A DNA stretch of 64,000 nucleotides, taken from contig CANXME010002420.1 of assembly GCA_948144175.1 (NCBI GenBank), positions 1,004,001 to 1,068,000 of the forward strand, given 5' to 3'. Below are positions 7,746 to 63,165 of this stretch, one piece after another. Source of the DNA: Closterium sp. NIES-65 (taxonomy: Eukaryota > Streptophyta > Zygnematophyceae > Desmidiales > Closteriaceae). The notes below the pieces were generated by a model. That model had not been told where the DNA came from. It worked only from the letters and a program-made list of their open reading frames with translations, and did not search any database. Every line of letters starts with the position of its first letter. Positions within the stretch are counted from its first letter, which is position 1. A program made the translations under genes and the position numbers.

Positions 7746-7791
7746 GCTTTCTGATGTTGTAGGTGTCTTGAAAGTGGAATTTATCCTGACA
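7746..7791 (-). other. Element D leader
   Basis: This is the short untranslated stretch between D's primer-binding site and its gag ATG. Nothing else is seen in it. Confidence 0.5.
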
Positions 7792-7803
7792 GCTCTCTTA
7801 CCA
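7792..7803 (-). promoter_or_regulatory. Element D primer-binding site
   Basis: The minus strand reads TGGTAAGAGAGC directly after an LTR end CCCAACA. This is a two-base variant of the initiator-tRNA site TGGTATCAGAGC, and it locates the 3' edge of D's 5' LTR. Confidence 0.7.
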
Positions 7804-7862
7804 TGTTGGGCTGAAAAAGCCCTTAGGATCTTTGCATGACTAAATTCCTGGTAGGACTAATG
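7804..7862 (-). repeat. Element D 5' LTR, downstream piece
   Basis: These 59 bp end (minus strand) in GCCCAACA before the primer site. The LTR is interrupted by element F. Its other piece is 40013-40397, which starts TGTTGGAAACAAG on the minus strand. TAATG at 7858-7862 is one copy of F's target duplication. Confidence 0.75.
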
Positions 7863-7988
7863 TGTCAAGAATGAGAAGTGATTGAACTATAGAACGTTGG
7901 AGTACAAGTAGGAAACCCTAGCTTTGTGTACCCCCTAAAGGCTAACCCACTATAGCCTACACAACAATAACACATATAGTGTTTGACA
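7863..7988 (-). repeat. Element F 3' LTR (126 bp)
   Basis: It begins TGTCAAACACTATATGTG and ends CATTCTTGACA on the minus strand. It directly follows the purine-rich tract CCTATGGGGGTG typical of this copia group. The outer flank is TAATG. Confidence 0.92.
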
Positions 7989-8187
7989 CACCCCCATAGG
8001 CAAAGTGGGGGAGAGCAAGGGGTCACAAGATCAGTTAAGAAAGGCAAGCAAGCTCAGGGTGGATCACAACGTCACCACACATTCCGAGCACAAGCAAAGG
8101 GTCACATGGCCAGTTCACATGCAGAAGTATATATGCAGCACAAACAGCAAGGGTGATCTCAACCTAGCAGAGCAAACAGGCAGGAGT
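7989..8187 (-). other. Element F 3' untranslated region with polypurine tract
   Basis: It is homologous to the 3' ends of elements A and B (GACCCCTTG, TCTCCCCCACTTTGCC, TATGGGGG). The purine tract next to the LTR would prime plus-strand cDNA. No gene is seen. Confidence 0.75.
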
Positions 8188-39881: not shown

Positions 39882-40007
39882 TGTCAAGAATGAGAAGTGA
39901 TTGAACTATGGAAAGTTGGAGTACAAGTAGGAAACCCTAGCTTTGTGTACACCCTAAAGGCTAACCCACTATAGCCTATACAACAATAACACATATAGTG
40001 TTTGGCA
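39882..40007 (-). repeat. Element F 5' LTR (126 bp)
   Basis: It begins TGCCAAACACTATATGTG (TG retained, third base changed) and ends CATTCTTGACA. It differs at five positions from 7863-7988. TAATG follows at 40008-40012. Confidence 0.92.
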
Positions 40008-41183: not shown

Positions 41184-41275
41184 TTAGCTAAGCTTTCCCA
41201 ATTCCATCTTTTTCTTGATAGCCTTGTGCCCATGGTAAACCACAGCATCTATTATCCCAGTCACAGTGAACACTC
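41184..41275 (-). CDS. ERGIC3: ERGIC3-like exon j (last coding exon)
   Basis: Acceptor TTGCTTGCAG. It completes Gly and encodes VFTVTGIIDAVVYHG then HKAIKKKMELGKLS and TAA (41184-41186). The short, lysine-rich tail faces the cytosol, where coat proteins bind in this family. No echo copies of this exon were found. Confidence 0.95.
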
Positions 41276-44200
41276 CTGCAAGCAAGGCAAGGTTCGCACA
41301 AGAGGAACATTCACTAGTGCGTACAAGCATTAAAATGCCAGCTCGTGATTTATGCTGAAACACAGCACCAATGATGTTTAAGAATAAGCGAACACATGAA
41401 GCTACTTGTGAATAAGCTTAGTCAATTTGAGCTGACTCACACAACCCCCTCGTCTGAGGGCCTCAAAGGCTGCATGTTTAGCCCACCACCACCACCACCC
41501 GATGCAATCTTTTAAAGAATATAAACAGTACGTGAAATATAGATTCTCACCTCCTATGATTGCGCAGACATTAGTGAGGAAGTGGAGGAAGGATGTGTTC
41601 TGCTCTGTGAAGCGAACCTGGTGCGTAAACAGAGGGGATGGATGTCAGGGTTTGTACTTCAAGACAAGAGTGAGGAAGTGGAGGAAGCATATGTGCTGCT
41701 CTGTGAATCTAACCTGGAGCGTGGGCCGGGAGGGGATGCAAATGCTTTGAGAAACGAGGATGCATGTCAGTGTTTATATGCAGAGTCACACAGCCATGAC
41801 TCACGCCCAAGGAAGGGCAGGAAGGATATGTGCTGCTCTGTGGAGCGAACCTGGTGTGGGAGCAGAGGGGGGAGGGAGATGGATGTCAGCGTTTTTGTTC
41901 AGAAATATGAGCGAGGAAGTGGAAGAAGGATGTGTGCTGCTCTGTGGAGCGAACCTGGTGTGGGAGCAGAGGGGGGATAAATGTTAGACTTTGCATTTAC
42001 AGCCAAAAGTGGGGACGCAAGTGACTCCTCATTCACATGCACAGACGTGAATACCAATATGCACAATCACATACATGCACATGGCACCAGTGAGGAGATG
42101 AAGGCTGTGGAACACATGCATGCAATGCAACCTTAGTGTGCTGCTCTGTGAAGCGAAACCCGGGAACTACAGACTGGGGTTGCATGCACATGACAACGGA
42201 AGAGACAGAGAGGGGAAATGTGCATGGTGGATGGTGATGAAGGTATGAGAAAGAGCAGACAGAGCACAGAGGAAGAAGACAAAAGAAGCTCGCACCTTGA
42301 TGGGTGAGAGGTCGTAAAAGAAAAAAACGCCTGGCAGGCTGTGACCCATCTCTGACGGCCGGAAGTGCTCCGTCACTGAAAACTGGGGGAGGGAGAGGAA
42401 GAAAGGAGGAGGGACGAGTAGGTTGCATTGTGAGCCGAATGCATGTGTGGAGCAGCAAGGGAGGGAAGGAAGAAGACGTATACGCCTGGCAGGCTGCTGT
42501 GACCCATTTCTGACGGCCGGAAGTGCTCCGTCACTGAAAACTGGGGGAGGGAGGAAAGAGAGAGGAATGGGGTAGAGGGTGCATTGTGATTCGTGCATGC
42601 ACGTGCAACCAAGGCAAGGAAAGGATACGGCTGGCAGGCTGTGAGCAATCCATGCAATATGTCTGGTGAGAAATCGGCTGGGCATTTCTGGGCAGAAACG
42701 CCCAGTCACTGAACCAAAAAAATGAACGGACGGCACTCGAAGAAAGTGACACGAACAAGAATTGAGGCAGGGCAAGGCAGGCTATGGGGGGCCCATCCCT
42801 GGTGCCCAGAAAAAGAGTTTTGAGATGGGGTACACATCCTTCCCCATTTGCTCAACATTTCCTTTATCACGTGGCAGGCAGGGTAGGCTAAGGGGAACCC
42901 ATCTCTGATGCCCACAATCGCTCACTTCCCCTAAGATCCACCTCCCGTTTCCGCGTGCTTTGAAATGGCCAGTCACTTACAGGAAGGGGAAGGGCTACAC
43001 CGGCCGTTTGTATCAAAAGAATTGGAAAAAGGAGATTACCTGGTTGGTTGAAATGGTGTGGTTTGAAACGTCCGTGTATAGGGTTGGCACGATCTGCATG
43101 TGGGCCGCCATTGAGTGAAGGAGAGGTGTGGTGGGAGGCAGAAGGGGATTGAGAAAGGAAGGATGTCTGGTTGGTAAAAAATGGTGTGGTTAGAGACTTC
43201 TGTGTAATGGTCTGGTTGCCACAATCTGGTTGTGCGAAGGGAGGGTGTGGAGTGGAGGGCAGGGGACGGGTATGCAGCACTGGCGCAAGGCAGGTGAGGG
43301 GGAAGGGAAGAGTGGGAAGAGTGGGACCAATCAAACCCCAAACAGGAGTCATGGTCTTTGCGTGGCAGCAGCAGCTTTTAGCAAACTGTTTGTTTAGTGT
43401 GTGTAGAGACTTGCTTTGAAAACCTTATGTAAAGGAATAATGGCGGTAACTAGTTTCGGCTCTTTGAGCCTTCTTCTGGTTGTACGAAGGGAGGGTGTGG
43501 AGTGGAGGGCAGGGGACGGGTATGCAGCACTGGCGCAAGGCAGGTGAGGGGGAAGGGAAGAGTGGGAAGAGTGGGACGGGGAGAAGACAGAAAGGGTAGC
43601 GATAAAGAAAGAGGCACCTCAGTGAAGCAACGACACAACGTCAGTGCACAACACAAGAAGTAACCTAATGACAATGATAAACTCTTACTTTGATAAAGCA
43701 GTACATGCCGGGATTTGAGTTGACGAAACAGGCAACCTCACCTTGATGAAGTATTGGTACATGAGTACCAATACTTCCTGTATCCATTTCCCCTTCTCGA
43801 CCTGAGTGTGCAACGACATGGCTTTGAGTGGACTCTCCTGTCTCACCTTGATGAAGTACTGATACATGCCGGGGTCCTTCTCCTGTATCCATTTCACCCT
43901 TGCTTCGCAATGCAGGTGTGCATCGGAATGCTTCGAGTCAGCATTGATACATGCTGACTTAACAGGCACTCTCATCTCATCTCACCTTGATGAAGTACTG
44001 ATACATGCCGGGGTCCTTCTCCTGTATCCATTTCACCCTGCCACACAAGCAGCCAACAGTGCAGCACACACACAAAGCCCTAGATGGCACATGAGAGCGC
44101 ACAACCAGCTTTCAAGGCAACGTGGCTCACACAACCTTTAAAGCAGCATGAAATGCCAGCACATGACATCACATGAACCCCACCCACTACAAAAACCTCT

Positions 44201-47200
44201 CGAGTGGACTTTTGCGTCGACTCAAAAGTCAATCAACCACCTTTCAAGGCAACGTGGCTCACACAACCCATGAAGCAAAATTGCATGCCAGCACATCACA
44301 TCATATCACATCACATCACTCAGACCCGCTTCAGAAACCTCTTTAATCTCACGTATTCCCATGAAATGAAGGCAGTCATTGACTAGCCACGCAGACCCCT
44401 CTACGTTGCTCACACAACCTTTAAAGCTTTGTACCAAACATCTTGTAAACACATACCCGTCTAGGGGGTTGACTAGGCCTGGAAACTTGGCTCCAAAGGA
44501 GAGCGAGTTGATCACATGCGATACCTGTAGTAGAAAGGGAAGCAGAAAGGGGGAGAGAGTGGAGGGGAAATATGGGCAGAGGCAGGTTGAAATAGGCATG
44601 GGCATCTGGCCCGACCCGGCCCGACCCGTCCCGTTTAGGGCGACCCGTTAGCTTAACGGGTCGGGTCGGGTCGGGTTAGCAGGTCGGGTTTGACTCTGTT
44701 TTGGTGACCCGACCCGCCCCGTTGGAACGGGTATTTGTGACCCGTAACCGGGTCGGTTACACCACGGGTCAAGTCGGGTCGGATCAAAATATGCTACATA
44801 GCAGCAGCGTATGGTGGCGCCTTGGCGCTGCTCCAGGTGGCGTTCGCGATGCTGGAGGTGGGGACCGCGATTCTGGCTGGTGGCGTTCGCGCTACTGCAA
44901 GGCCGCTATCGCGCTATTGCGGGGATGCGATCCCGCCAATGCGTGGCTGCGATCGCGCTGCCCTAATCTGGTGCCGCGATCGCGCATATGCGGGGCCGCG
45001 ATCGGTTGCGCAAATGCGGGGCCGAGATCGCGCTATTGCGGGGACACGATCCCGCCAATGCGTGGCCGCGAGTGCGCTGCTGCGCCCCTGGTCATGCGAC
45101 ACTGCGTAATGGCAGGAGCGCCTATGCCTATAATGAATATAAATATTAAAATAGTGCTAACATTGAAGTGAAGACTGTAAGAGTTTTGGTAGGTGCAGTG
45201 GAGATTTACTAACTTGATTAGAGACTGGATCTGAATGTCGAGGGAAACAAAACATCAAAACCAACTGATGTTTTCCCCCTCTCCAAATTGTACCCTAAGC
45301 AGAGAACGGGTCGGGTAACCCTGTCATTTGACTGGGTATGCGACCCGGACGGGACGGGTCAACCCGACCCGGCGGGTCGCTGATACCTGTCTATAAGTCA
45401 CATTGACGGGTCACGGGTCGACCCGACCCGCCCGGGTAAACCCGACCCGACCCGGACAGGTCGACATTCTCAGCATTCCTGACCCGACCCGCCATTTTAG
45501 GCGGGTCGGGTCGGGTAACCCGACCCGTCCGGGCCAAATGCCCATCCCTAGGTTGAAAGCAGCTCCAGGTGCGTACCCCTCTTGGGGGTTGACTAGTCCT
45601 GGAAACTTGGCTCCAAAAAAGCTGAGGAAATTATATGAGACACATGTTGTAGAAAGGAAAGGAGGGTGGAGAGGAAAGGGTCACACACAATAAGGGTCGT
45701 GGTATGGTATTGACTTACGATAAGGGTCACACACAATAAGGGTCGTGGTATGGTATTGACTTACAATAAGGGTCACACACAATAAGGGTCGTGGTATGGT
45801 ATTGACTTACGATAAGGGTCACACACAATAAGGGTCGTGGTATGGAATTGACTTACGATAAGGGTCACACACAATAAGGGTCGTGGTATGGTATTGACTT
45901 ACGATAAGTGTCACACACAATAAGAGTCATGGTACGGTACTGGCTTACATTGAACGTCATGTGCTGGATGGGCATGAGATCATGCACGTGCAAGCCTCCC
46001 AAAGCAGAACAGGGAAGCGAATCTCACATGTCAATCCTCTTTCCTTTCCTTATGACGCATGCGCCTTACATGAGCCTCACGTGAACCTCACATTGAACGT
46101 CATGTGCTGGAAGGGCATGAGGTCATGCACGTGCAAGCCTCCCTGCTGAAAGCTCTTCCCCGGCGCAAAGTGGAAGTTCCCTGCCACCTTGTTCACCTGC
46201 ACATGAGGGGGCGGTGAAGGGGGGGAGGTCGCATATAGAGAAGGGAGGGCGAAGCAATGAGTGACAGCACAAGGAGGAGGAGTGCACTGGGTAGATGGGT
46301 GCAAACAAGCCTCCCTGCTGAAAGCTCTTCCCCGGTGCAAAGTGGAAGTTCCCTGCCACCTTGTTCACCTGCACGTGTGGTGATCGGGGGAAGGAGGGGA
46401 CAAGGAGTGTAACAGTAGTACTGCCACTGATGGGTGTGCCTTGTAAGCCTATCTTCCCCGGTGCAAAGTGGAAACTCCCTGCCACCTTGTTCACTTGCAT
46501 CTGTGAAGCAGGCAGGAGCAGGAGGGGAGGGGGTCGCAGGCAGAAGAGAGAGGCTGCATGCATAGGCGAGGAGAGGGGATCGCGGACAAGGAGGGACAAG
46601 GAGTGCGGCACCGGGAGGAAGGAGGATGAGTGGACATCAGGTGGGTGCAAGCTCCCTGCTGGAAGCTCCCTGCTGGAAGCTCCCTGCTGGAAGCTCCCTG
46701 CTGGAAGCTCCCTGCTGGAAGCTCCCTGCTGGAAGCTCCCTGCTGGAAGCTCCCTGCTGGAAGCTCCCTGCTGGAAGCTCCCTGCTGGAAGCTCCCTGCT
46801 GGAAGCTCCCTGCTGGAAGCTCCGTGCTGGAAGCTCCGTGCTGGAAGCTCCCTGCTGGAAGCTCCCTGCTGGAAGCTCCGTGCTGGAAGCTCCGTGCTGG
46901 AAGCTCCGTGCTGGAAGCTCCCTGCTGGAAGCTCCCTGCTGGAAGCTCCCTGCTGGAAGCTCCCTGCTGGAAGCTCCCTGCTGGAAGCTCCCTGCTGGAA
47001 GCTCCCTGCTGAAAGCTCCCTGCTGGAAGCTCCCTGCTGGAAGCTCCGTGCTGGAAGCTCCCTGCTGGAAGCTCCGTGCTGGAAGCTCCCTGCTGGAAGC
47101 TCCCTGCTGGAAGCTCCCTGCTGGAGGCTCCCTGCTGGAAGCTCCCTGCTGGAAGCTCCGTGCTGGAAGCTCCCTGCTGGAAGCTCCGTGCTGGAAGCTC

Positions 47201-50200
47201 CCTGCTGGAAGCTCCGTGCTGGAAGCTCCGTGCTGGAAGCTCCGTGCTGGAAGCTCCGTGCTGGAAGCTCCGTGCTGGAAGCTCCGTGCTGGAAGCTCCC
47301 TGGAAGCTCCGTGCTGGAAGCTCCGTGCTGGAAGCTCCCTGCTGGAAGCTCCCTGCTGGAAGCTCCCTGCTGGAAGCTCCCTGCTGGAAGCTCCCTGCTG
47401 GAAGCTCCGTGCTGGAAGCTACCTGCTGGAAGCTCCCTGCTGGAAGCTCCCTGCTGGAAGCTCCCTGCTGGAAGCTCCCTGCTGGAAGCTCCCTGCTGGA
47501 AGCTCCCTGCTGGAAGCTCCCTGCTGGAAGCTCCCTGCTGGAAGCTCTCCTGCTGGAAGCTCCGTGCTGGAAGCTCCGTGCTGGAAGCTCCGTGCTGGAA
47601 GCTCCCTGCTGGAAGCTCCCTGCTGGAAGCTCCCTGCTGGAAGCTCCCTGCTGGAAGCTCCCTGCTGGAAGCTCCCTGCTGGAAGCTCCCTGCTGAAAGC
47701 TCCCTGCTGGAAGCTCCCTGCTGGAAGCTCCGTGCTGGAAGCTCCCTGCTGGAAGCTCCGTGCTGGAAGCTCCCTGCTGGAAGCTCCCTGCTGGAAGCTC
47801 CCTGCTGGAAGCTCCCTGCTGGAAGCTCGCTGCTGGAAGCTCCGTGCTGGAAGCTCCGTGCTGGAAGCTCCCTGCTGGAAGCTCCCTGCTGGAAGCTCCG
47901 TGCTGGAAGCTCCGTGCTGGAAGCTCCGTGCTGGAAGCTCCCTGCTGGAAGCTCCCTGCTGGAAGCTCCCTGCTGGAAGCTCCCTGCTGGAAGCTCCCTG
48001 CTGGAAGCTCCCTGCTGGAAGCTCCCTGCTGAAAGCTCCCTGCTGGAAGCTCCCTGCTGGAAGCTCCGTGCTGGAAGCTCCCTGCTGGAAGCTCCGTGCT
48101 GGAAGCTCCCTGCTGGAAGCTCCCTGCTGGAAGCTCCCTGCTGGAAGCTCCCTGCTGGAAGCTACCTGCTGGAAGCTCCCTGCTGGAAGCTCCCTGCTGG
48201 AAGCTCCCTGCTGGAAGCTCCCTGCTGGAAGCTCCCTGCTGGAAGCTCCCTGCTGGAAGCTCCCTGCTGAAAGCTCCGTGCTGGAAGCTCCCTGCTGGAA
48301 GCTCCGTGCTGAAAGCTCCCTGCTGGAAGCTCCCTGCTGGAAGCTCCCTGCTGGAAGCTCCGTGCTGGAAGCTCCCTGCTGGAAGCTCCCTGCTGGAAGC
48401 TCCCTGCTGGAAGCTCCGTGCTGGAAGCTCCCTGCTGGAAGCTCCGTGCTGGAAGCTCCCTGCTGGAAGCTCCGTGCTGGAAGCTCCGTGCTGGAAGCTC
48501 CCTGCTGGAAGCTCCCTGCTGGAAGCTCCCTGCTGGAAGCTCCCTGCTGGAAGCTCCCTGCTGGAAGCTCCCTGCTGGAAGCTCCCTGCTGGAAGCTCCG
48601 TGCTGGAAGCTCCCTGCTGGAAGCTCCGTGCTGGAAGCTCCCTGCTGGAAGCTCCCTGCTGGAAGCTCCCTGCTGGAAGCTCCGTGCTGGAAGCTCCGTG
48701 CTGGAAGCTCCCTGCTGGAAGCTCCCTGCTGGAAGCTCCCTACTGGAAGCTCCCTGCTGGAAGCTCCCTGCTGGAAGCTCCCTGCTGGAAGCTCCCTGCT
48801 GGAAGCTCCCTGCTGGAAGCTCCCTGCTGGAAGCTACCTGCTGGAAGCTCCCTGCTGGAAGCTCCCTGCTGGAAGCTCCGTGCTGGAAGCTCCCTGCTGG
48901 AAGCTCCCTGCTGGAAGCTCCCTGCTGGAAGCTCCCTGCTGGAAGCTCCCTGCTGGAAGCTCCCTGCTGGAAGCTCCCTGCTGGAAGCTCCCTGCTGAAA
49001 GCTCCGTGCTGGAAGCTCCCTGCTGGAAGCTCCGTGCTGAAAGCTCCCTGCTGGAAGCTCCCTGCTGGAAGCTCCCTGCTGGAAGCTCCGTGCTGGAAGC
49101 TCCCTGCTGGAAGCTCCCTGCTGGAAGCTCCCTGCTGGAAGCTCCCTGCTGGAAGCTCCCTGCTGGAAGCTCCGTGCTGGAAGCTCCCTGCTGGAAGCTC
49201 CGTGGTGGAAGCTCCGTGCTGGAAGCTCCCTGCTGGAAGCTCCCTGCTGGAAGCTCCCTGCTGGAAGCTCCCTGCTGGAAGCTCCCTGCTGGAAGCTCCG
49301 TGCTGGAAGCTCCCTGCTGGAAGCTCCCTGCTGGAAGCTCCCTGCTGAAAGCTCCGTGCTGGAAGCTCCCTGCTGGAAGCTCCGTGCTGAAAGCTCCGTG
49401 CTGGAAGCTCCCTGCTGGGAGCTCCCTGCTGGAAGCTCCCTGCTGGAAGCTCCCTGCTGGAAGCTCCCTGCTGGAAGCTCCGTGCTGGAAGACTCCCTGC
49501 TGGAAGCTCCCTGCTGGAAGCTCCCTGCTGGAAGCTCCCTGCTGGAAGCTCCCTGCTGGAAGCTCCCTGCTGGAAGCTCCCTGCTGGAAGCTCCCTGCTG
49601 GAAGCTCCCTGCTGGAAGCTCCCTGCTGGAAGCTCCCTGCTGGAAGCTCCCTGCTGGAAGCTCCGTGCTGGAAGCTCCCTGCTGGAAGCTCCCTGCTGGA
49701 AGCTCCCTGCTGGAAGCTCCCTGCTGGAAGCTCCCTGCTGGAAGCTCCCTGCTGGAAGCTCCCTGCTGGAAGCTCCCTGCTGGAAGCTCCCTGCTGGAAG
49801 CTCCCTGCTGGAAGCTCCCTGCTGGAAGCTCCCTGCTGGAAGCTCCCTGCTCGAAGCTCCCTGCTCGAAGCTCCCTGCTGGAAGCTCCCTGCTGGAAGCT
49901 CTGTGCTGGAAGCTCCGTGCTGGAAGCTCCCTGCTGGGAGCTCTGTGCTGGAAGCTCCCTGCTGGAAGCTCCCTGCTGGAAGCTCCGTGCTGGAAGCTCC
50001 GTGCTGGAAGCTCCGTGCTGGAAGCTCCCTGCTGGAAGCTCCCTGCTGGAAGCTCCCTGCTGGAAGCTCCCTGCTGGAAGCTCCCTGCTGGAAGCTCCCT
50101 GCTGGAAGCTCCCTGCTGGAAGCTCCCTGCTGGAAGCTCCCTGCTGGAAGCTACCTGCTGGAAGCTCCCTGCTGGAAGCTCCCTGCTGGAAGCTACCTGC

Positions 50201-53200
50201 TGGAAGCTCCCTGCTGGAAGCTCCCTGCTGGAAGCTCCGTGCTGGAAGCTCCCTGCTGGAAGCTCCCTGCTGGAAGCTCCCTGCTGGAAGCTCCCTGCTG
50301 GAAGCTCCCTGCTGGAAGCTCCCTGCTGGAAGCTCCCTGCTGGAAGCTCCCTGCTGGAAGCTCCCTGCTGGAAGCTCCCTGCTGGAAGCTCCCTGCTGGA
50401 AGCTCCCTGCTGGAAGCTCCCTGCTGGAAGCTCCCTGCTGGAAGCTCCCTGCTGGAAGCTCCCTGCTGGAAGCTCCCTGCTGGAAGCTCCCTGCTGGAAG
50501 CTCCCTGCTGGAAGCTCCCTGCTGGAAGCTCCCTGCTGGAAGCTCCCTGCTGGAAGCTCCCTGCTGGAAGCTCCCTGCTGGAAGCTCCCTGCTGGAAGCT
50601 CCGTGCTGGAAGCTCCCTGCTGGAAGCTCCCTGCTGGAAGCTCCCTGCTGGAAGCTCCCTGCTGGAAGCTCCCTGCTGGAAGCTCCCTGCTGGAAGCTCC
50701 CTGCTGGAAGCTCCGTGCTGGAAGCTCCTTGCTGGAAGCTCCCTGCTGGAAGCTCCCTGCTGGAAGCTCCCTGCTGGAAGCTCCCTGCTGGAAGCTCCCT
50801 GCTGGAAGCTCCCTGCTGGAAGCTCCCTGCTGGAAGCTCCGTGCTGGAAGCTCCCTGCTGGAAGCTCCCTGCTGGAAGCTCCCTGCTGGAAGCTCCCTGC
50901 TGGAAGCTCCCTGCTGGAAGCTCCCTGCTGGAAGCTCCGTGCTGGAAGCTCCCTGCTGGAAGCTCCGTGCTGGAAGCTCCCTGCTTGAAGCTCCCTGCTG
51001 GAAGCTCCCTGCTGGAAGCTCCGTGCTGGAAGCTCCGTGCTGGAAGCTCCGTGCTGGAAGCTCCCTGCTGGAAGCTCCCTGCTGGAAGCTCCCTGCTGGA
51101 AGCTCCCTGCTGGAAGCTCCCTGCTGGAAGCTCCCTGCTGGAAGCTCCCTGCTGGAAGCTCCCTGCTGGAAGCTCCCTGCTGGAAGCTCCCTGCTGGAAG
51201 CTCCGTGCTGGAAGCTCCCTGCTCGAAGCTCCCTGCTGGAAGCTCCCTGCTGGAAGCTCTGTGCTGGAAGCTCCGTGCTGGAAGCTCCCTGCTGGGAGCT
51301 CCCTGCTGGAAGCTCCCTGCTGGAAGCTCCTGGAGCTCCGTGCTGGAAGCTCCGTGCTGGAAGCTCCGTGCTGGAAGCTCCGTGCTGGAAGCTCCGTGCT
51401 GGAAGCTCCCTGCTGGAAGCTCCCTGCTGGAAGCTCCCTGCTGGAAGCTCCCTGCTGGAAGCTCCCTGCTGGAAGCTCCCTGCTGGAAGCTCCCTGCTGG
51501 AAGCTACCTGCTGGAAGCTCCCTGCTGGAAGCTCCCTGCTGGAAGCTACCTGCTGGAAGCTCCCTGCTGGAAGCTCCCTGCTGGAAGCTCCGTGCTGGAA
51601 GCTCCCTGCTGGAAGCTCCCTGCTGGAAGCTCCCTGCTGGAAGCTCCCTGCTGGAAGCTCCCTGCTGGAAGCTCCCTGCTGGAAGCTCCCTGCTGGAAGC
51701 TCCCTGCTGGAAGCTCCCTGCTGGAAGCTCCCTGCTGGAAGCTCCCTGCTGGAAGCTCCCTGCTGGAAGCTCCCTGCTGGAAGCTCCCTGCTGGAAGCTC
51801 CCTGCTGGAAGCTCCCTGCTGGAAGCTCCCTGCTGGAAGCTCCCTGCTGGAAGCTCCCTGCTGGAAGCTCCCTGCTGGAAGCTCCCTGCTGGAAGCTCCC
51901 TGCTGGAAGATCCCTGCTGGAAGCTCCCTGCTGGAAGCTCCCTGCTGGAAGCTCCGTGCTGGAAGCTCCGTGCTGGAAGCTCCCGTGCTGGAAGCTCCCT
52001 GCTGGAAGCTCCCTGCTGGAAGATCCCTGCTGGAAGCTCCCTGCTGGAAGCTCCCTGCTGGAAGCTCCCTGCTGGAAGCTCCCTGCTGGAAGCTCCCTGC
52101 TGGAAGCTCCCTGCTGGAAGCTCCCTGCTGGAAGCTCCGTGCTGGAAGCTCCCTGCTGGAAGCTCCGTGCTGGAAGCTCCCTGCTGGAAGCTCCCTGCTG
52201 GAAGCTCCCTGCTGGAAGCTCCCTGCTGGAAGCTCCCTGCTGGAAGCTCCCTGCTGGAAGCTCCCTGCTGGAAGCTCCCTACTGGAAGCTCCCTGCTGGA
52301 AGCTCCCTGCTGGAAGCTCCCTGCTGGAAGCTCCGTGCTGGAAGCTCCCTGCTGGAAGCTCCGTGCTGGAAGCTCCCTGCTGGAAGCTCCCTGCTGGAAG
52401 CTCCCTGCTGGAAGCTCCCTGCTGGAAGCTCCCTGCTGGAAGCTCCCTGCTGGAAGCTCCCTGCTGGAAGCTCCCTGCTGGAAGCTCCCTGCTGGAAGCT
52501 CCCTGCTGGAAGCTCCCTGCTGGAAGCTCCCTGCTGGAAGCTCCCTGCTGGAAGCTCCCTGCTGGAAGATCCCTGCTGGAAGCTCCCTGCTGGAAGCTCC
52601 CTGCTGGAAGCTCCGTGCTGGAAGCTCCGTGCTGGAAGCTCCCTGCTGGAAGCTCCCTGCTGGAAGCTCCCTGCTGGAAGCTCCCTGCTGGAAGCTCCCT
52701 GCTGGAAGCTCCCTGCTGGAAGCTCCCTGCTGGAAGCTCCCTGCTGGAAGCTCCCTGCTGGAAGCTCCCTGCTGGAAGCTCCGTGCTGGAAGCTCCCTGC
52801 TGGAAGCTCCGTGCTGGAAGCTCCCTGCTGGAAGCTCCCGTGCTGGAAGCTCCCTGCTGGAAGCTCCCTGCTGGAAGCTCCCTGCTGGAAGCTCCCTGCT
52901 GGAAGCTCCCTGCTGGAAGCTCCCTGCTGGAAGCTCCCTGCTGGAAGCTCCCTGCTGGAAGCTCCCTGCTGGAAGCTCCCTGCTGGAAGCTCCCTGCTGG
53001 AAGCTCCCTGCTGGAAGCTCCCTGCTGGAAGCTCCCTGCTGGAAGCTCCCTGCTGGAAGATCCCTGCTGGAAGCTCCCTGCTGGAAGCTCCCTGCTGGAA
53101 GCTCCGTGCTGGAAGCTCCGTGCTGGAAGCTCCCTGCTGGAAGCTCCCTGCTGGAAGCTCCCTGCTGGAAGCTCCCTGCTGGAAGCTCCCTGCTGGAAGC

Positions 53201-56200
53201 TCCCTGCTGGAAGCTCCCTGCTGGAAGCTCCTGCTGGAAGCTCCCTGCTGGAAGCTCCCTGCTGGAAGCTCCCTGCTGGAAGCTCCCTGCTGGAAGCTCC
53301 GTGCTGGAAGCTCCCTGCTGGAAGCTCCCGTGCTGGAAGCTCCCTGCTGGAAGCTCCCTGCTGGAAGCTCCCGTGCTGGAAGCTCCGTGCTGGAAGCTCC
53401 GTGCTGGAAGCTCCCTGCTGGAAGCTCCCTGCTGGAAGCTCCCTGCTGGAAGCTCCCTGCTGGAAGCTCCCTGCTGGAAGCTCCTGCTGGAAGCTCCCTG
53501 CTGGAAGCTCCCTGCTGGAAGCTCCCTGCTGGAAGCTCCCTGCTGCAAGCTCCCTGCTGGAAGCTCCCTGCTGCAAGCTCCCTGCTGGAAGCTCCCTGCT
53601 GGAAGCTCCCTGCTGGAAGCTCCCTGCTGGAAGCTCCCTGCTGGAAGCTCCCTGCTGGAAGCTCCCTGCTGGAAGCTCCCTGCTGGAAGCTCCCTGCTGG
53701 AAGCTCCCTGCTGGAAGCTCCCTGCTGGAAGCTCCGTGCTGGAAGCTCCCTGCTCGAAGCTCCCTGGTGGAAGCTCCCTGCTGGAAGCTCTGTGCTGGAA
53801 GCTCCGTGCTGGAAGCTCCCTGCTGGAAGCTCCCTGCTGGAAGCTCCCTGCTGGAAGCTCCCTGCTGGAAGCTCCCTGCTGCAAGCTCCCTGCTGGAAGC
53901 TCCCTGCTGGAAGCTCCCTGCTGGAAGCTCCCTGCTGGAAGCTCCCTGCTGGAAGCTCCCTGCTGGAAGCTCCCTGCTGGAAGCTCCCTGCTGGAAGCTC
54001 CCTGCTGGAAGCTCCCTGCTGGAAGCTCCCTGCTGGAAGCTCCCTGCTGGAAGCTCCCTGCTGGAAGCTCCCTGCTGGAAGCTCCCTGCTGGAAGCTCCC
54101 TGCTGGAAGCTCCGTGCTGGAAGCTCCCTGCTCGAAGCTCCCTGGTGGAAGCTCCCTGCTGGAAGCTCTGTGCTGGAAGCTCCGTGCTGGAAGCTCCCTG
54201 CTGGGAGCTCCCTGCTGGAAGCTCCCTGCTGGAAGCTCCCTGCTGGAAGCTCCGTGCTGGAAGCTCCGTGCTGGAAGCTCCCTGCTGGAAGCTCCCTGCT
54301 GGAAGCTCCCTGCTGGAAGCTCCCTGCTGGAAGCTCCCTGCTGGAAGCTCCCTGCTGGAAGCTCCCTGCTGGAAGCTACCTGCTGGAAGCTCCCTGCTGG
54401 AAGCTCCCTGCTGGAAGCTCCCTGCTGGAAGCTCCCTGCTGCAAGCTCCCTACTGGAAGCTCCCTGCTGGAAGCTCCCTGCTGGAAGCTCCCTGCTGGAA
54501 GCTACCTGCTGGAAGCTCCCTGCTGGAAGCTCCCTGCTGGAAGCTCCCTGCTGGAAGCTCCCTGCTGCAAGCTCCCTGCTGGAAGCTCCCTGCTGCAAGC
54601 TCCCTGCTGGAAGCTCCCTGCTGGAAGCTCCCTGCTGGAAGCTCCCTGCTGGAAGCTCCCTGCTGGAAGCTCCCTGCTGGAAGCTCCCTGCTGGAAGCTC
54701 CCTGCTGGAAGCTCCCTGCTGGAAGCTCCCTGCTGGAAGCTCCCTGCTGGAAGCTCCCTGCTGGAAGCTCCGTGCTGGAAGCTCCCTGCTGGAAGCTCCC
54801 TGCTGGAAGCTCCCTGCTGGAAGCTCCCTGCTGGAAGCTCCCTGCTGGAAGCTCCCTGCTGGAAGCTCCCTGCTGGAAGCTCCCTGCTGGAAGCTCCCTG
54901 CTGGAAGCTCCCTGCTGGAAGCTCCCTGCTGGAAGCTCCCTGCTGGAAGCTCCCTGCTGGAAGCTCCCTGCTGGAAGCTCCCTGCTGGAAGCTCCCTGCT
55001 GGAAGCTCCCTGCTGGAAGCTCCCTGCTGGAAGCTCCCTGCTGGAAGCTCCCTGCTGGAAGCTCCCTGCTGGAAGCTCCCTGCTGGAAGCTCCCTGCTGG
55101 AAGCTCCCTGCTGGAAGCTCCCTGCTGGAAGCTCCCTGCTGAGCTCCTGCTGGAAGCTCCGTGCTGGAAGCTCCGTGCTGGAAGCTCCCTGCTGGAAGCT
55201 CCCTGCTGGAAGCTCCCTGCTGGAAGCTCCCTGCTGGAAGCTCCCTGCTGGAAGCTCCCTGCTGGAAGCTCCCTGCTGGAAGCTCCCTGCTGGAAGCTCC
55301 CTGCTGGAAGCTCCCTGCTGGAAGCTCCCTGCTGGAAGCTCCGTGCTGGAAGCTCCCTGCTGGAAGCTCCGTGCTGGAAGCTCCCTGCTGGAAGCTCCCT
55401 GCTGGAAGCTCCCTGCTGGAAGCTCCCTGCTGGAAGCTCCCTGCTGGAAGCTCCCTGCTGGAAGCTCCCTGCTGGAAGCTCCCTGCTGGAAGCTCCCTGC
55501 TGGAAGCTCCCTGCTGGAAGCTCCCTGCTGGAAGCTCCGTGCTGGAAGCTCCCTGCTGGAAGCTCCGTGCTGGAAGCTCCCTGCTGGAAGCTCCCTGCTG
55601 GAAGCTCCCTGCTGGAAGCTCCCTGCTGGAAGCTCCCTGCTGGAAGCTCCCTGCTGGAAGCTCCCTGCTGGAAGCTCCCTGCTGGAAGCTCCCTGCTGGA
55701 AGCTCCCTGCTGGAAGCTCCCTGCTGGAAGCTCCCTGCTGGAAGCTCCCTGCTGGAAGCTCCGTGCTGGAAGCTCCCTGCTGGAAGCTCCGTGCTGGAAG
55801 CTCCCTGCTGGAAGCTCCCTGCTGGAAGCTCCCTGCTGGAAGCTCCCTGCTGGAAGCTCCCTGCTGGAAGCTCCCTGCTGGAAGCTCCCTGCTGGAAGCT
55901 CCCTGCTGGAAGCTCCCTGCTGGAAGCTCCCTGCTGGAAGCTCCCTGCTGGAAGCTCCCTGCTGGAAGCTCCCTGCTGGAAGCTCCCTGCTGGAAGATCC
56001 CTGCTGGAAGCTCCGTGCTGGAAGCTCCCTGCTGGAAGCTCCGTGCTGGAAGCTCCGTGCTGGAAGCTCCCTGCTGGAAGCTCCCTGCTGGAAGCTCCGT
56101 GCTGAAAGCTCCCTGCTGGAAGCTCCCTGCTGGAAGCTCCCTGCTGGAAGCTCCCTGCTGGAAGCTCCCTGCTGGAAGCTCCCTGCTGGAAGCTCCCTGC

Positions 56201-59200
56201 TGGAAGCTCCCTGCTGGAAGCTCCCTGCTGGAAGCTCCCTGCTGGAAGCTCCCTGCTGGAAGCTCCCTGCTGGAAGCTCCCTGCTGGAAGCTCCCTGCTG
56301 GAAGATCCCTGCTGGAAGCTCCCTGCTGGAAGCTCCCTGCTGGAAGCTCCGTGCTGGAAGCTCCGTGCTGGAAGCTCCCTGCTGGAAGCTCCCTGCTGGA
56401 AGCTCCCTGCTGGAAGCTCCCTGCTGGAAGCTCCCTGCTGGAAGCTCCCTGCTGGAAGCTCCCTGCTGGAAGCTCCCTGCTGGAAGCTCCCTGCTGGAAG
56501 CTCCCTGCTGGAAGCTCCGTGCTGGAAGCTCCCTGCTGGAAGCTCCCTGCTGGAAGCTCCCTGCTGGAAGCTCCCTGCTGGAAGCTCCCTGCTGGAAGCT
56601 CCCTGCTGGAAGCTCCCTGCTGGAAGCTCCCTGCTGGAAGCTCCCTGCTGGAAGCTCCCTGCTGGAAGCTCCCTGCTGGAAGCTCCCTGCTGGAAGCTCC
56701 GTGCTGGAAGCTCCCTGCTGGAAGCTCCGTGCTGGAAGCTCCCTGCTGGAAGCTCCCTGCTGGAAGCTCCCTGCTGGAAGCTCCCTGCTGGAAGCTCCCT
56801 GCTGGAAGCTCCCTGCTGGAAGCTCCCTGCTGGAAGCTCCCTGCTGGAAGCTCCCTGCTGGAAGCTCCCTGCTGGAAGCTCCCTGCTGGAAGCTCCCTGC
56901 TGGAAGCTCCCTGCTGGAAGATCCCTGCTGGAAGCTCCCTGCTGGAAGCTCCCTGCTGGAAGCTCCGTGCTGGAAGCTCCGTGCTGGAAGCTCCCTGCTG
57001 GAAGCTCCCTGCTGGAAGCTCCGTGCTGAAGCTCCCTGCTGGAAGCTCCCTGCTGGAAGCTCCCTGCTGGAAGCTCCCTGCTGGAAGCTCCCTGCTGGAA
57101 GCTCCCTGCTGGAAGCTCCCTGCTGGAAGCTCCCTGCTGGAAGCTCCCTGCTGGAAGCTCCCTGCTGGAAGCTCCCTGCTGGAAGATCCCTGCTGGAAGC
57201 TCCCTGCTGGAAGCTCCCTGCTGGAAGCTCCGTGCTGGAAGCTCCGTGCTGGAAGCTCCCTGCTGGAAGCTCCCTGCTGGAAGCTCCCTGCTGGAAGCTC
57301 CCTGCTGGAAGCTCCCTGCTGGAAGCTCCCTGCTGGAAGCTCCCTGCTGGAAGCTCCCTGCTGGAAGCTCCCTGCTGGAAGCTCCCTGCTGGAAGCTCCC
57401 TGCTGGAAGCTCCGTGCTGGAAGCTCCCTGCTGGAAGCTCCGTGCTGGAAGCTCCCTGCTGGAAGCTCCCTGCTGGAAGCTCCCTGCTGGAAGCTCCCTG
57501 CTGGAAGCTCCCTGCTGGAAGCTCCCTGCTGGAAGCTCCCTGCTGGAAGCTCCCTGCTGGAAGCTCCCTGCTGGAAGCTCCCTGCTGGAAGCTCCCTGCT
57601 GGAAGCTCCCTGCTGGAAGCTCCCTGCTGGAAGCTCCGTGCTGGAAGCTCCCTGCTGGAAGCTCCCTGCTGGAAGCTCCCTGCTGGAAGCTCCCTGCTGG
57701 AAGCTCCCTGCTGGAAGCTCCCTGCTGGAAGCTCCCTGCTGGAAGCTCCCTGCTGGAAGCTCCCTGCTGGAAGCTCCCTGCTGGAAGCTCCCTGCTGGAA
57801 GCTCCCTGCTGGAAGCTCCCTGCTGGAAGCTCCCTGCTGGAAGCTCCCTGCTGGAAGCTCCCTGCTGGAAGCTCCCTGCTGGAAGCTCCGTGCTGGAAGC
57901 TCCGTGCTGGAAGCTCCCTGCTGGAAGCTCCCTGCTGGAAGCTCCCTGCTGGAAGCTCCCTGCTGGAAGCTCCCTGCTGGAAGCTCCCTGCTGGAAGCTC
58001 CCTGCTGGAAGCTCCCTGCTGGAAGCTCCCTGCTGGAAGCTCCCTGCTGGAAGCTCCGTGCTGGAAGCTCCCTGCTGGAAGCTCCGTGCTGGAAGCTCCC
58101 TGCTGGAAGCTCCCTGCTGGAAGCTCCCTGCTGGAAGCTCCGTGCTGGAAGCTCCCTGCTGGAAGCTCCCTGCTGGAAGCTCCCTGCTGGAAGCTCCCTG
58201 CTGGAAGCTCCCTGCTGGAAGCTCCCTGCTGGAAGCTCCCTGCTGGAAGCTCCCTGCTGGAAGCTCCCTGCTGGAAGCTCCCTGCTGGAAGCTCCCTGCT
58301 GGAAGCTCCCTGCTGGAAGCTCCCTGCTGGAAGCTCCCTGCTGGAAGCTCCCTGCTGGAAGCTCCCTGCTGGAAGCTCCGTGCTGGAAGCTCCCTGCTGG
58401 AAGCTCCCTGCTGGAAGCTCCCTGCTGGAAGCTCCCTGCTGGAAGCTCCCTGCTGGAAGCTCCCTGCTGGAAGCTCCCTGCTGGAAGCTCCCTGCTGGAA
58501 GCTCCCTGCTGGAAGCTCCCTGCTGGAAGCTCCGTGCTGGAAGCTCCCTGCTGGAAGCTCCGTGCTGGAAGCTCCCTGCTGGAAGCTCCCTGCTGGAAGC
58601 TCCCTGCTGGAAGCTCCGTGCTGGAAGCTCCGTGCTGGAAGCTCCCTGCTGGAAGCTCCCTGCTGGAAGCTCCCTGCTGGAAGCTCCCTGCTGGAAGCTC
58701 CCTGCTGGAAGCTCCGTGCTGGAAGCTCCCTGCTGGAAGCTCCCTGCTGGAAGCTCCCTGCTGGAAGCTCCCTGCTGGAAGCTCCCTGCTGCAAGCTCCC
58801 TGCTGGAAGCTCCCTGCTGCAAGCTCCCTGCTGGAAGCTCCCTGCTGGAAGCTCCCTGCTGGAAGCTCCCTGCTGGAAGCTCCCTGCTGGAAGCTCCCTG
58901 CTGGAAGCTCCCTGCTGGAAGCTCCCTGCTGGAAGCTCCCTGCTGGAAGCTCCCTGCTGGAAGCTCCCTGCTGGAAGCTCCGTGCTGGAAGCTCCCTGCT
59001 CGAAGCTCCCTGGTGGAAGCTCCCTGCTGGAAGCTCTGTGCTGGAAGCTCCGTGCTGGAAGCTCCCTGCTGGAAGCTCCCTGCTGGAAGCTCCCTGCTGG
59101 AAGCTCCCTGCTGGAAGCTCCCTGCTGCAAGCTCCCTGCTGGAAGCTCCCTGCTGCAAGCTCCCTGCTGGAAGCTCCCTGCTGGAAGCTCCCTGCTGGAA

Positions 59201-62200
59201 GCTCCCTGCTGGAAGCTCCCTGCTGGAAGCTCCCTGCTGGAAGCTCCCTGCTGGAAGCTCCCTGCTGGAAGCTCCCTGCTGGAAGCTCCCTGCTGGAAGC
59301 TCCCTGCTGGAAGCTCCGTGCTGGAAGCTCCCTGCTCGAAGCTCCCTGGTGGAAGCTCCCTGCTGGAAGCTCTGTGCTGGAAGCTCCGTGCTGGAAGCTC
59401 CCTGCTGGGAGCTCCCTGCTGGAAGCTCCCTGCTGGAAGCTCCCTGCTGGAAGCTCCGTGCTGGAAGCTCCGTGCTGGAAGCTCCCTGCTGGAAGCTCCC
59501 TGCTGGAAGCTCCCTGCTGGAAGCTCCCTGCTGGAAGCTCCCTGCTGGAAGCTCCCTGCTGGAAGCTCCCTGCTGGAAGCTACCTGCTGGAAGCTCCCTG
59601 CTGGAAGCTCCCTGCTGGAAGCTCCCTGCTGGAAGCTCCCTGCTGCAAGCTCCCTACTGGAAGCTCCCTGCTGGAAGCTCCCTGCTGGAAGCTCCCTGCT
59701 GGAAGCTACCTGCTGGAAGCTCCCTGCTGGAAGCTCCCTGCTGGAAGCTCCCTGCTGGAAGCTCCCTGCTGGAAGCTCCCTGCTGCAAGCTCCCTGCTGG
59801 AAGCTCCCTGCTGCAAGCTCCCTGCTGGAAGCTCCCTGCTGGAAGCTCCCTGCTGGAAGCTCCCTGCTGGAAGCTCCCTGCTGGAAGCTCCCTGCTGGAA
59901 GCTCCGTGCTGGAAGCTCCGTGCTGGAAGCTCCGTGCTGGAAGCTCCGTGCTGGAAGATCCGTGCTGGAAGCTCCCTGCTGGAAGCTCCCTGCTGGAAGC
60001 TCCCTGCTGGAAGCTCCCTGCTGGAAGCTCCCTGCTGGAAGCTCCCTGCTGGAAGCTCCGTGCTGGAAGCTCCCTGCTGGAAGCTCCCTGCTGGAAGCTC
60101 CCTGCTGGAAGCTCCCTGCTGGAAGCTCCCTGCTGGAAGCTCCCTGCTGGAAGCTCCCTGCTGGAAGCTCCCTGCTGGAAGCTCCCTGCTGGAAGCTCCC
60201 TGCTGGAAGCTCCCTGCTGGAAGCTCCCTGCTGGAAGCTCCCTGCTGGAAGCTCTTACAAAGAAGGATTGTTCCAGTGTGGGCATTGGGCTGGCCTGGAA
60301 CAATCCAATCCAAACAGCTGGGATCTCAGCCATTTATGTTGCCCCTCTAGGAAGCCATACATGTTGCACACCCCTCCTTACCTGCAATCGGCAGAGCAGC
60401 AGCCCATCGCACACGCTTCACCCCACAGTCTTGAACCTCGTAAACCTCTCACCTCTAAAGAGCCGCACATGTTGCACCCTTCGCCTTCCTGTGCCTTGGT
60501 GGTCTCGGTGAAGCCCTCCTTCTAGCCAGGGACCAGTGGCAACTCAGCACAATTTTGTAAGCCCAAAGCCCTGAACCCCTCACCTCCAGGAACCCGTACA
60601 TGTTGCACCCCTCGCCTTCCTGTAGGCTGCAGCAGCCCATCACACTCCCCTGAGCCCAACCAAACCCCTGAACCCCTCACCTCCAGGAACCCGTACATGT
60701 TGCACCCCTCGCCTTCTTGTAGGCTGCAGCAGCCCATCACACTCCCCTGAGCCCAACCAAACCCCTGAACCCCTCACCTCCAGGAACCCGTACATGTTGC
60801 ACCCCTCGCCTTCCTGCGCCTTGATGGTCTCGGTAAAGCCTTCCTTCTTGCACTGTGGATCAACAAGCATGGCAAGCGCGGGTCAACACATGCATGGGCG
60901 ACAAGACAGGAATTGAGAGAGCAAATGAGACACGGAGGCTGCATGCATGGCCGCTTTCTCCCTGCGCCTTAATAGTCTCGGTAAAGCCTTCCTTCTTGCA
61001 CTGTGGATCAACAAGCACGGCCGACAACAAGACAGGGGAAACGCATGGGTGAGTGAGTGGGCTCTTTCTCTCCCATGGTGATTCAGGTTGACTCAAGAAT
61101 CACCTGGAATCGAGGCATGGGCGAGGGGTGCAAATGACTGCGCCTGTCTGTACCTGCTCGATGGAGTCTGGGTTGGTGAACGCCCACCCCCACATCACAT
61201 CCGCACGCCCTTGCACCTCACACACACTCCCCAGGAGAAGAAATAGACACTCACTGACCGCCTGTCTGTACCTGCTCGATGGAGTCTGGGTTGGTGAACG
61301 CCCACCCTCTCTTACGATACGCTTCCCTCACTTCGTCGCAAGTGTTGCAGCAGTCGTGCTCGTGCTGTGAGGGGGGAAAAAGGGGGGGGGAGGGAGTGGG
61401 GTTAAGATGTTGTTGAGACAGAAGGGATAGAGGAGACTTCCCTCACTTCGTCACACGTGTTGCAGCAGTCGTGCTCATGCTGGGAGGGGGGAAGGGGGGG
61501 GATGACGGGGAGCGGGAGTGGAAGGGGGAGGGAGAGGAGAGGAGAAGAGGGGTTGACATATTGGTGAGTGAGGCGAAACGGAGAAGGAACTCCTCCCTCA
61601 CTTAGACACACGTGTTGCAGCAATCGTGCTTGTACTGTGAGGGGAAGGGGGAAGCAACGAGGGGGGGAAAGAGGGGAAGAAACGGTGGGGCGGACGAAAG
61701 GTTAGGTTAGGAGAGAGGGGTGGAGAAAGGATGAGGAGGGGGGGGGGGGGTGAGAAAAAAATGGAGAGGACGAGCTCATACAATCCGTCACAAGTGACAA
61801 CTTTTGAGGAGCCTCTTTTGAGGCGCCTCAAAATGCTCTCATACAATTCGTCACAAGTGACAACTTTGAGGAGCCTCTTTTGAGGCCTCAAGAGCAAGAC
61901 GAGGCCTCAAAAGTTGCCTCAAGAGCAAGACGAGCTTGTACAATCCGTCACCTTGCAGCATTCGTGCTCGTGCTGTGAGGGAAGAGGGAGGAGCAGCAGG
62001 AGTGGAGAAGAGGGGGAAAAGGAAGAAAGGAGAGAGGGGAAGGAAGGGAATGGGGAGAGGGGTCAACATGTTGGTGAGACGAGTCGGAGGACGACCTCAT
62101 ACAATCGGTCACAGGTGCTGCAGCAACTGTGCTTATGCAAGGACAAGACGGCAAACTCAGCCCCTCAGCACCGCACTGACCTCCTCAGCACCGTAGCAGC

Positions 62201-62549: not shown

Positions 62550-62663
62550 CTAGATTGGGGGAGTGGTTAAGATGAGGGAAGAAGTAGAGTCAGGATGGGC
62601 ATCTGTATCCGCTCATGCCTCTAAGTCTGCCTTCTCTCGCCCCCACCTCGTGCTTCGTCCCCA

Positions 62664-63165
62664 CCTCGTGCTTCGCCCCCACCTCGTGCTTCGTCCCCTG
62701 TGACTCTATGGGGCGCCCGCTCTTGCCCAGCCGCCGCTTGTACACGTTGTGTACCTGAGAGGGTGGGTGGGGGGAAACATGAGGACAGGGAGTAACGAAC
62801 ATCATTCATCTGCCTCTCATGCGTCTCCCCCATCTCGTGCTTCGCCCCCCTGTGTGACTCTATGGGCCGTCCATTCTTGCCCAGCCGCCGCTTGTACACA
62901 TTGTGCACCTGAAAGAGTGGGGTTGTGAATAGGGCGCACAGAAGACATCTGTATCCGCCAACGCTTCTGTCTGTCAGTCTGTCTGTCTTTCCCCCACCTC
63001 GTGCTGCATGCCTTGTGACTCTATGACCCGCTGGCATAGATTGGGATTGTAAAAAGGCTGAAAGGGGGGTTGTGAGGGTGGGAGAAGACACAGGATGAAA
63101 AGATAATCCAGGCAAACTCTGTGTCTTCTAGATGGGGCGCCCCATTGAGTCACAAGATGAGCCCT
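62664..63165. repeat. Partial copies of exon a upstream, one inverted
   Basis: Acceptor-containing copies of VHNVYKRRLGKNGRPIES occur at about 62664-62757 and 62822-62912, with a remnant near 62995-63046. A short copy at 63132-63165 is in the opposite orientation (GRPIESQDE on the plus strand). Spacing is about 155 bp. Confidence 0.85.

Follow-up and report, generated by a model that had tools for sequence, protein, structure and literature searches.

A 64,000-nucleotide stretch of DNA (the window) from contig CANXME010002420.1 of Closterium sp. NIES-65 holds a 13.6-kb array of a 14-bp unit, and the array lies in an intron of a gene of the ERGIC3/ERV46 type. With good confidence, it can be described as a minisatellite that arose within the intron from a partial copy there, or echo, of the gene's own exon d. 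The echoes in which the array is set are more interesting than the array alone. Exon fragments of the same kind lie beside most exons of this gene and beside coding stretches of others. A profile search of the contigs placed PF07970 exons of the gene on both sides of the array. The gene is on the minus strand, with exons 3 to 12 at 62,549-41,187 and exons 1-2 past the window end. The array and the two exons that enclose it are as follows.

46649..60254, no strand assigned: 14-bp minisatellite, ~972 units AAGCTCCCTGCTGG (CCAGCAGGGAGCTT on the gene strand), within the intron from exon 5 (c) to exon 6 (d)
60778..60852, minus strand: exon 5 (c), CKKEGFTETIKAQEGEGCNMYGFLE (tblastn, exon mapping)
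46092..46196, minus strand: exon 6 (d), VNKVAGNFHFAPGKSFQQGGLHVHDLMPFQHMTFN(V) (tblastn, exon mapping, PF07970 match C2122:1050083-1050205)

Tandem Repeats Finder (TRF) gave a period of 14 with 972.4 copies and 97% matches over 13.6 kb at 46,649-60,254, and decomposition into units resolved 972 of them in 46,649-60,248, 958 being exactly 14 bp long. The commonest units are AAGCTCCCTGCTGG (747) and then AAGCTCCGTGCTGG (137), among 29 unit types when odd-length units are included. A map of the unit variants revealed ordered blocks that recur along the array: 43 units at a lag of 372, 29 at 375, 26 at 24, 22 at 73 and 36 at 97. The unit length (within 10-60 bp), the kilobase size and the variant repeats are those of a minisatellite or variable number tandem repeat (VNTR). 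The 13.6-kb minisatellite that a sequence-only reading of the window had announced was therefore confirmed, and its proposed start at 46092 turned out to be the edge of exon d, the array itself starting at 46,649. The same reading held that the gene strand of the array still spells the FQQG of the exon, which is true in a weak sense, as the 14-bp unit passes through all three frames (PAGSFQQGASSREL). All six frames of the array are open over 1,709 to 3,637 codons, which may lead gene finders to predict spurious proteins.

The link to exon d starts from a seed motif in that exon, AAGCCTCCCTGCTGAAAGCTC at 46,135-46,155, which equals the unit plus one extra C and with one A for G. Local alignment of the unit with exon d scored 33, a value reached by none of 2000 dinucleotide shuffles of the exon (maximum 28) and by none of 2000 permuted units. 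A score of 31 was likewise reached by none of 5000 random 14-mers taken as tandem units from the fetched loci of the genome (best 27), and these three controls rule out a chance resemblance. The best unit scores elsewhere were 14 among nine other ERGIC3 exons, 20 among 11 exons of a paralogue and 18 among 13 proteasome coding stretches. When the rest of the window was scanned in 60-bp stretches on both strands, an echo of exon d (echo 2, below) came first with 34, followed by exon d with 31, and the third-best place, in a repetitive stretch, had 25. The search was then extended to the assembly (874 Mb, 2400 contigs), where places with at most 3 mismatches in 28 numbered 950 forward and 450 reverse, exactly the 950 of the window and the 450 of a fetched region of C604 that carries a second copy of the locus. 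The unit is at no other locus in the assembly and occurs in just two copies of one intron, which rules out a dispersed satellite family; the sequence-only reading had named the same satellite at unrelated loci as evidence that would count against birth from the exon. The flank of the array was found on C2122 and C604, besides a 42-bp match to the paralogue exon on C626 and C1787. The SFQQ residues were present in all five relatives read of 120 listed (Magnolia, Chara, Marchantia, a jgi/Mesvir1 entry taken to be Mesostigma, and one more), so the exon piece is ancestral and the direction runs from exon to array. In exon 6 of the paralogue the seed motif is absent (KVFYTAG in place of KSFQQGG), and no array is present in the paralogue's exon 5-6 intron, which is ~0.3 kb long. 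An origin of the array from exon d is thus well supported.

Between exon d and the array lies a stack of exon-d echoes, which had been noticed in the sequence-only reading and were confirmed here. These echoes, a further one downstream and the spacer beside the array are listed below.

46306..46374, minus strand: echo 2, upstream of exon d in gene sense, covering the first 63 nt (5' part) of that exon, with acceptor CAG
46438..46500, minus strand: echo 3, a more degraded 5' part that aligns with the first 43 nt of exon d, acceptor CAA
46495..46647, minus strand: spacer X4, after the array in gene sense, starting CACCCACC, as do the spacers after echoes 2 and 3
45943..45999, minus strand: downstream echo of exon d, 3' part GGLHVHDLMPIQHMTFNV (tblastn)

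Each upstream exon-d fragment is followed, within ~12 bases, by CACCCATC and a pyrimidine-rich spacer, and then by the next fragment. At its left edge, the array gives way in gene sense to CACCCACC and a similar spacer. The motif CACCCAYC, also found after the fragment in echoes 2 and 3, occurs eight times on the gene strand of the 64-kb window (perfect units masked), and three of the eight are at these boundaries. The similarity of spacers X4 and X2 was reached by none of 1000 base shuffles. The array edge is in register with the echo stack, so that the array occupies the place expected for the end of a third exon-d fragment, and X4 would be what remains of a third upstream echo whose exon fragment turned into the array. 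The claim that the left edge looks like the exon was therefore well founded. The parallel claim for the right edge adds little, as beyond the unit two informative bases (the AA of AAGAGCTT, gene sense) agree with exon d. Birth from a piece of exon d stood as regards derivation, borne out by the controls, the single intron and the ancestral SFQQ, and was amended as regards the parent, most likely an intronic partial copy and not the working exon. The proposed slippage seed, AAGC...AAGC at about 14 bp, exists as a near-repeat; its spacing is 15 bp (AAGCC...AAGCTC), presumably cut to 14 by the loss of one C.

Several observations at the array and its edges weigh against this account. The 15-bp ancestral form is kept by no unit of either array in the unit decomposition. 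The X4 versus X3 score was reached by 8 of 1000 shuffles, which keep base content only, and the left flank of the array alone is not significantly similar to echo 2 by local alignment (162 of 500 shuffles reach the score, and 1 of 500 when 1.5 units are included). The third exon-d echo is without its 5' part, so the edge at 60,254 has two informative bases. Finally, another stretch of exon d, TGGAAGTTCCCTGC (46,171-46,184), matches the unit at 13 of 14 positions ungapped and could have contributed. The seed might then have been this stretch, which is found in exon d and echo 2, or TGGAAACTCCCTGC in echo 3, or a recombinant by way of the common TCCCTGC, and any of these would account for the G in ...CTGG. 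A seed of this sort is unlikely, as CACCCACC directly after GGGAGCTTG, and AAGAGCTT at the far end, fit the first motif, while the plus strand continues CACCTTG after the second motif, which is seen at neither edge.

The exons recur in the second copy of the locus, on C604, whose gene-region flanks are 95.5-99.5% identical per aligned piece. The array could be compared between two copies (alleles or duplicates) of one intron within one assembly. The C604 array is in three pieces of 3.20, 0.56 and 2.73 kb, a total of 6.5 kb vs 13.6 kb in the window, and is interrupted by two mobile-element insertions. One is a 1,426-bp element (L010:3223-4648) whose 18-bp terminal inverted repeats are perfect; it has an 8-bp target duplication and is, from this, presumably hAT-like. 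The other is a 4.7-kb copia-type piece (L010 ~5212-9889) with gag, pre-integrase and integrase domains; its gag-integrase open frame continues directly into the array and the remainder of the element is missing on that side, perhaps lost through a deletion inside the array. Nine unit types are common to both arrays (of 29 and 30, odd-length units included). No block of units is shared by the two copies beyond chance, the best match scoring 17.0 bits against 12.9-21.2 in 20 shuffles, two of which were higher. Over the time in which the flanks came to differ by a few per cent, the internal order of the array has thus turned over so far that it is no longer recognizable. Seven of 11 introns differ in length between the copies, three by >300 bp. 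Corresponding echoes are present in both locus copies, and those of C604 are 94% (echo 2, 63 nt) and 93% (echo 3, 43 nt) identical to the exon.

This comparison bears on whether the array is retained for a function, for example as about a thousand decoy acceptor sites (CUUCCAG) or as a means to slow transcription. An array is indeed present in both locus copies, and CTTCCAG stands at every gene-sense unit junction. The single-strand folding of six units, compared with shuffles, gave a z of -3.9 in gene sense, -1.8 for the plus strand and -0.1 for the G variant, which is suggestive only. A function nevertheless seems improbable for an array whose second copy has about half the repeat length, two mobile-element insertions and no detectable shared internal order.

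Two further origins are very improbable. In one, the array came from elsewhere, as an unrelated satellite or insertion, and is like exon d by chance. The right edge, with its near lack of support, would allow this, and a 12-bp inverted repeat (GGATTGTTCCAG...CTGGAACAATCC, window 60265-60306) adjoins it; the match that none of the control sequences reached, the absence of any other locus in the 874 Mb and the register of the left edge all argue the other way. In the other, to which we give just as little credence, the array grew directly from the working exon d, which contains the motif and lies ~450 bp from the array, and the exon was later restored or displaced. Against this, exon d is whole and in its proper order, it is separated from the array by two echoes, and what follows the array is a spacer like those of the echoes and not a continuation of the exon.

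The screen for echoes was made with the 12 exons of the C604 copy, the array being masked, and with the maximum of 20 shuffles (29.2 bits) as the cut-off. It retained 36 copies, and 17 weaker matches were dropped. All 36 ERGIC3 exon copies are in adjacent introns and on the same strand, none being distal, and at least one echo was found for 11 of the 12 mapped exons. The copies obey a simple rule, in that 32 of the 36 are either a 5' part of the exon placed upstream or a 3' part placed downstream (binomial p 2e-6). The exceptions are a 3' part upstream of exon 7 and another upstream of exon 9, one exon 10 piece, and one downstream copy of exon 5 that covers most of the exon. Whole-exon copies were counted for the rule by tie-break at exon 8 and against it in one paralogue case; without them the counts are 31/35 for ERGIC3 and 12/12 for the paralogue. 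The outer limits are precise: 14 of 17 upstream 5'-part copies begin within 1 base of the 5' border of the exon, and 14 of 15 downstream 3'-part copies finish within 1 base of its 3' border. Divergence from the source exon reaches ~29%. That the echoes and the array are assembly artefacts, repeats this long being hard to assemble, is hardly credible for copies so different from their exons, with counterparts in both locus copies between such similar flanks, and for an array with ordered variant blocks.

The same pattern was seen beyond this gene. In the paralogue, all 13 copies are local and on the same strand, and 12 of the 13 follow the rule. The proteasome sample began as 44 matches, of which 30 loci were cut out with 1.5 kb on each side and 13 stretches were left after removal of near-identical copies. 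By position these are ~8 genes, so the 13 are not all independent; copies occur in 9 of the 13 coding stretches, or 6 of the 8 genes, and all 26 copies are on the same strand, with 25 following the rule. The exon borders of the paralogue and the proteasome stretches come from protein matches and not from mapped splice sites. In a third family, a TCP-1 profile search gave at least three gene pairs (C1626/C1647, C43/C1794 and C1052/C1420) in which profile ranges that overlap lie near one another on the same strand, judged by eye and outside the statistics. The proteasome and TCP-1 stretches are mostly present in two or three like copies.

Set against a process aimed at exons, copies were found in only 5 of 11 paralogue exons, and same-strand repeats are nearly as common outside coding sequence (85/182) as within it (9/13). 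The short arrays at the proteasome loci are also mostly not derived from exons, as 3 of 64 overlapping rows are clearly above the null and two of those three have units of the 150-bp class. One 29-bp, 3.1-copy array overlaps the end of a coding stretch (L048:1650-1740). Stretches without a coding match repeat within their locus on the same strand in the 85 of 182 cases just given and on the opposite strand in 9 of 182, the stretches overlapping and possibly including unannotated exons. Since non-coding stretches repeat nearly as often, the duplication process is not exon-specific. Local duplication in direct orientation is a general trait of these loci, recognizable where exons were copied. 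The other exons of the window, and what is known of their echoes, are given here.

62637..62698, minus strand: second, small array of exon origin, 18 bp x 3.4 (KHEVGA), where an intronic exon 3 echo ends (TRF)
62376..62549, minus strand: exon 3, with an internal 18-bp near-repeat GAAGCACGAGGTGGGGGC/GAAGCATGAG (KHEVGA KHE) (tblastn, exon mapping between copies)
61272..61364, minus strand: exon 4, with an upstream echo at 61438-61482 (tblastn, exon mapping)
60678-60719, 60581-60622 and 60432-60521, minus strand: three echoes of exon 5, downstream of exon 5 (tblastn), the first two inside a 97-bp repeat (TRF 60563-60816)
44524-44456, 44036-43986, 43093-43040, 42385-42297, 41614-41549 and 41276-41187, minus strand: exons 7 to 12 (tblastn, exon mapping), with echoes found for exons 7 to 11 as well (41187..44524 region)

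The rule is most simply read as the outcome of tandem duplications that each span a single splice site, with selection for an intact exon acting as a filter. A duplication confined to an exon alters the protein, and one that crosses a border leaves a whole exon in place and a truncated copy toward the intron, hence the 5' parts upstream and the 3' parts downstream. In a first step, tandem duplications of ~100-200 bp would have started in an intron and ended inside an exon; the pattern of copies is plain to see, and such a mechanism would keep the whole exon and add to the intron a truncated copy that includes the splice site. Two such copies remain at the exon d acceptor and a third probably existed, and most other exons have copies as well. 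In a second step, which the anatomy of the locus suggests, the near-repeat AGCTT-TCAGCAGGGAG-GCTT at the end of the exon fragment in the third echo may have seeded a 14-bp duplication after one base was lost, the echo being free of coding constraint. The third step, growth and change by block duplications, is visible in exactly repeated runs of 7 to 43 units, as would be expected from unequal exchange, conversion or template switching, and there was probably little or no selection on the sequence or length of the array. We infer this order of events from the present layout of the locus. The second exon-born array suggests that the same path was followed more than once, as both arrays lie at the inner end of an exon fragment and come from a near-repeat of the exon.

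The protein closest to that of the gene comes from Closterium sp. NIES-53; it has ERGIC_N and COPIIcoated_ERV domains and is 97% identical over a 237-residue query. With the exon stretches open and this identity holding over the query residues, the coding exons are intact. Judged by the sequence, the host would be Closterium or close kin. The first exon (residues 1-46) was not located in the protein-match mapping. A 46-bp, 5.9-copy array lies at window 45676-45948, in the intron between exons 6 and 7, which is 1,567 bp long in the window and 585 bp in the C604 copy. C604 and the window differ in structure from about window position 40,000 downwards. Window 1-36000 contains large segments related to one another, some direct and some inverted, and many coding-type minisatellites. 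Additional PF07970 matches are on C2167 and C2039, in opposite orientation and ~92 kb and ~106 kb apart, respectively.

The parent of a minisatellite is seldom known. Here it is, in all likelihood, a conserved coding piece, and the exon, its partial copies and the array stand as stages within one intron, showing how long satellite DNA can arise from coding sequence. Hypervariable minisatellites, or VNTRs, combine a short unit and kilobase length with variant repeats, multi-unit block duplications and rapid loss of shared order. The array is like them in unit, length, variants, blocks and lost order, and unlike them in having a nameable parent, an intronic copy of a conserved exon. Local tandem duplication with a splice signal reportedly also alters intron structure, in intron gain by tandem genomic duplication. 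The Closterium case differs in that introns are not gained; those already present grow longer and take up pieces of exons. Duplications with one splice site spare the protein, and the rule of 5' parts upstream and 3' parts downstream would explain why exon fragments build up in introns.

The two or three copies of genes seen here, on paired contigs, fit what is described for the Closterium psl. complex, a haploid-phase alga with widespread gene duplication and copy-number variation (PMC10407611). That study concerns whole-gene duplication, and exon fragments in introns are not mentioned in the parts of it consulted. As Closterium can be cultured and has a haploid vegetative phase, the process is directly measurable there.

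The closest known system is the exon stuttering described in 2026 from genes on avian dot chromosomes, in which fragments of exon edges with their splice sites are copied into adjacent introns and the exons stay intact (PMC12954441, as far as the sections consulted go, here and below). The literature search, which covered few subscription journals, gave no report of exon stuttering outside that paper and none from algae or plants. The Closterium pattern works like exon stuttering, in a new lineage. In both, the copies are confined between exons, the exons are intact, the tandems are imperfect and the genes are GC-rich (PMC12954441), and the Closterium introns are also repetitive from purely intronic sequence, as the 85 same-strand cases of 182 indicate. 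The border precision is comparable, with >90% of the sources within 1 base of an exon border in birds (PMC12954441) and 28 of the 32 rule-following echoes in Closterium. Intron length polymorphism between individuals also belongs to the bird system (PMC12954441); what Closterium offers for comparison is the two locus copies of one assembly, with 7 of 11 introns unequal in length. The proposed causes, replication stress with repair or meiotic conversion, are speculation by the bird authors' own account, and they mention gerbils as data not shown (PMC12954441). With the pattern present in an alga as in bird dot chromosomes, and gerbils named, the cause is unlikely to be special to birds. It is with middling confidence that we go further and see in Closterium a standing, genome-wide process of small tandem duplications straddling splice sites, which fills introns with exon edges and acts as a general nursery of satellites, and in stuttering a way of genome growth that recurs across very distant eukaryotes and is not peculiar to birds. 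Compared with the birds (PMC12954441), the alga is a streptophyte without confinement to dot chromosomes, the two or three gene families having been chosen regardless of chromosome, and one of its echoes apparently went on to become a 972-unit, 14-bp array.

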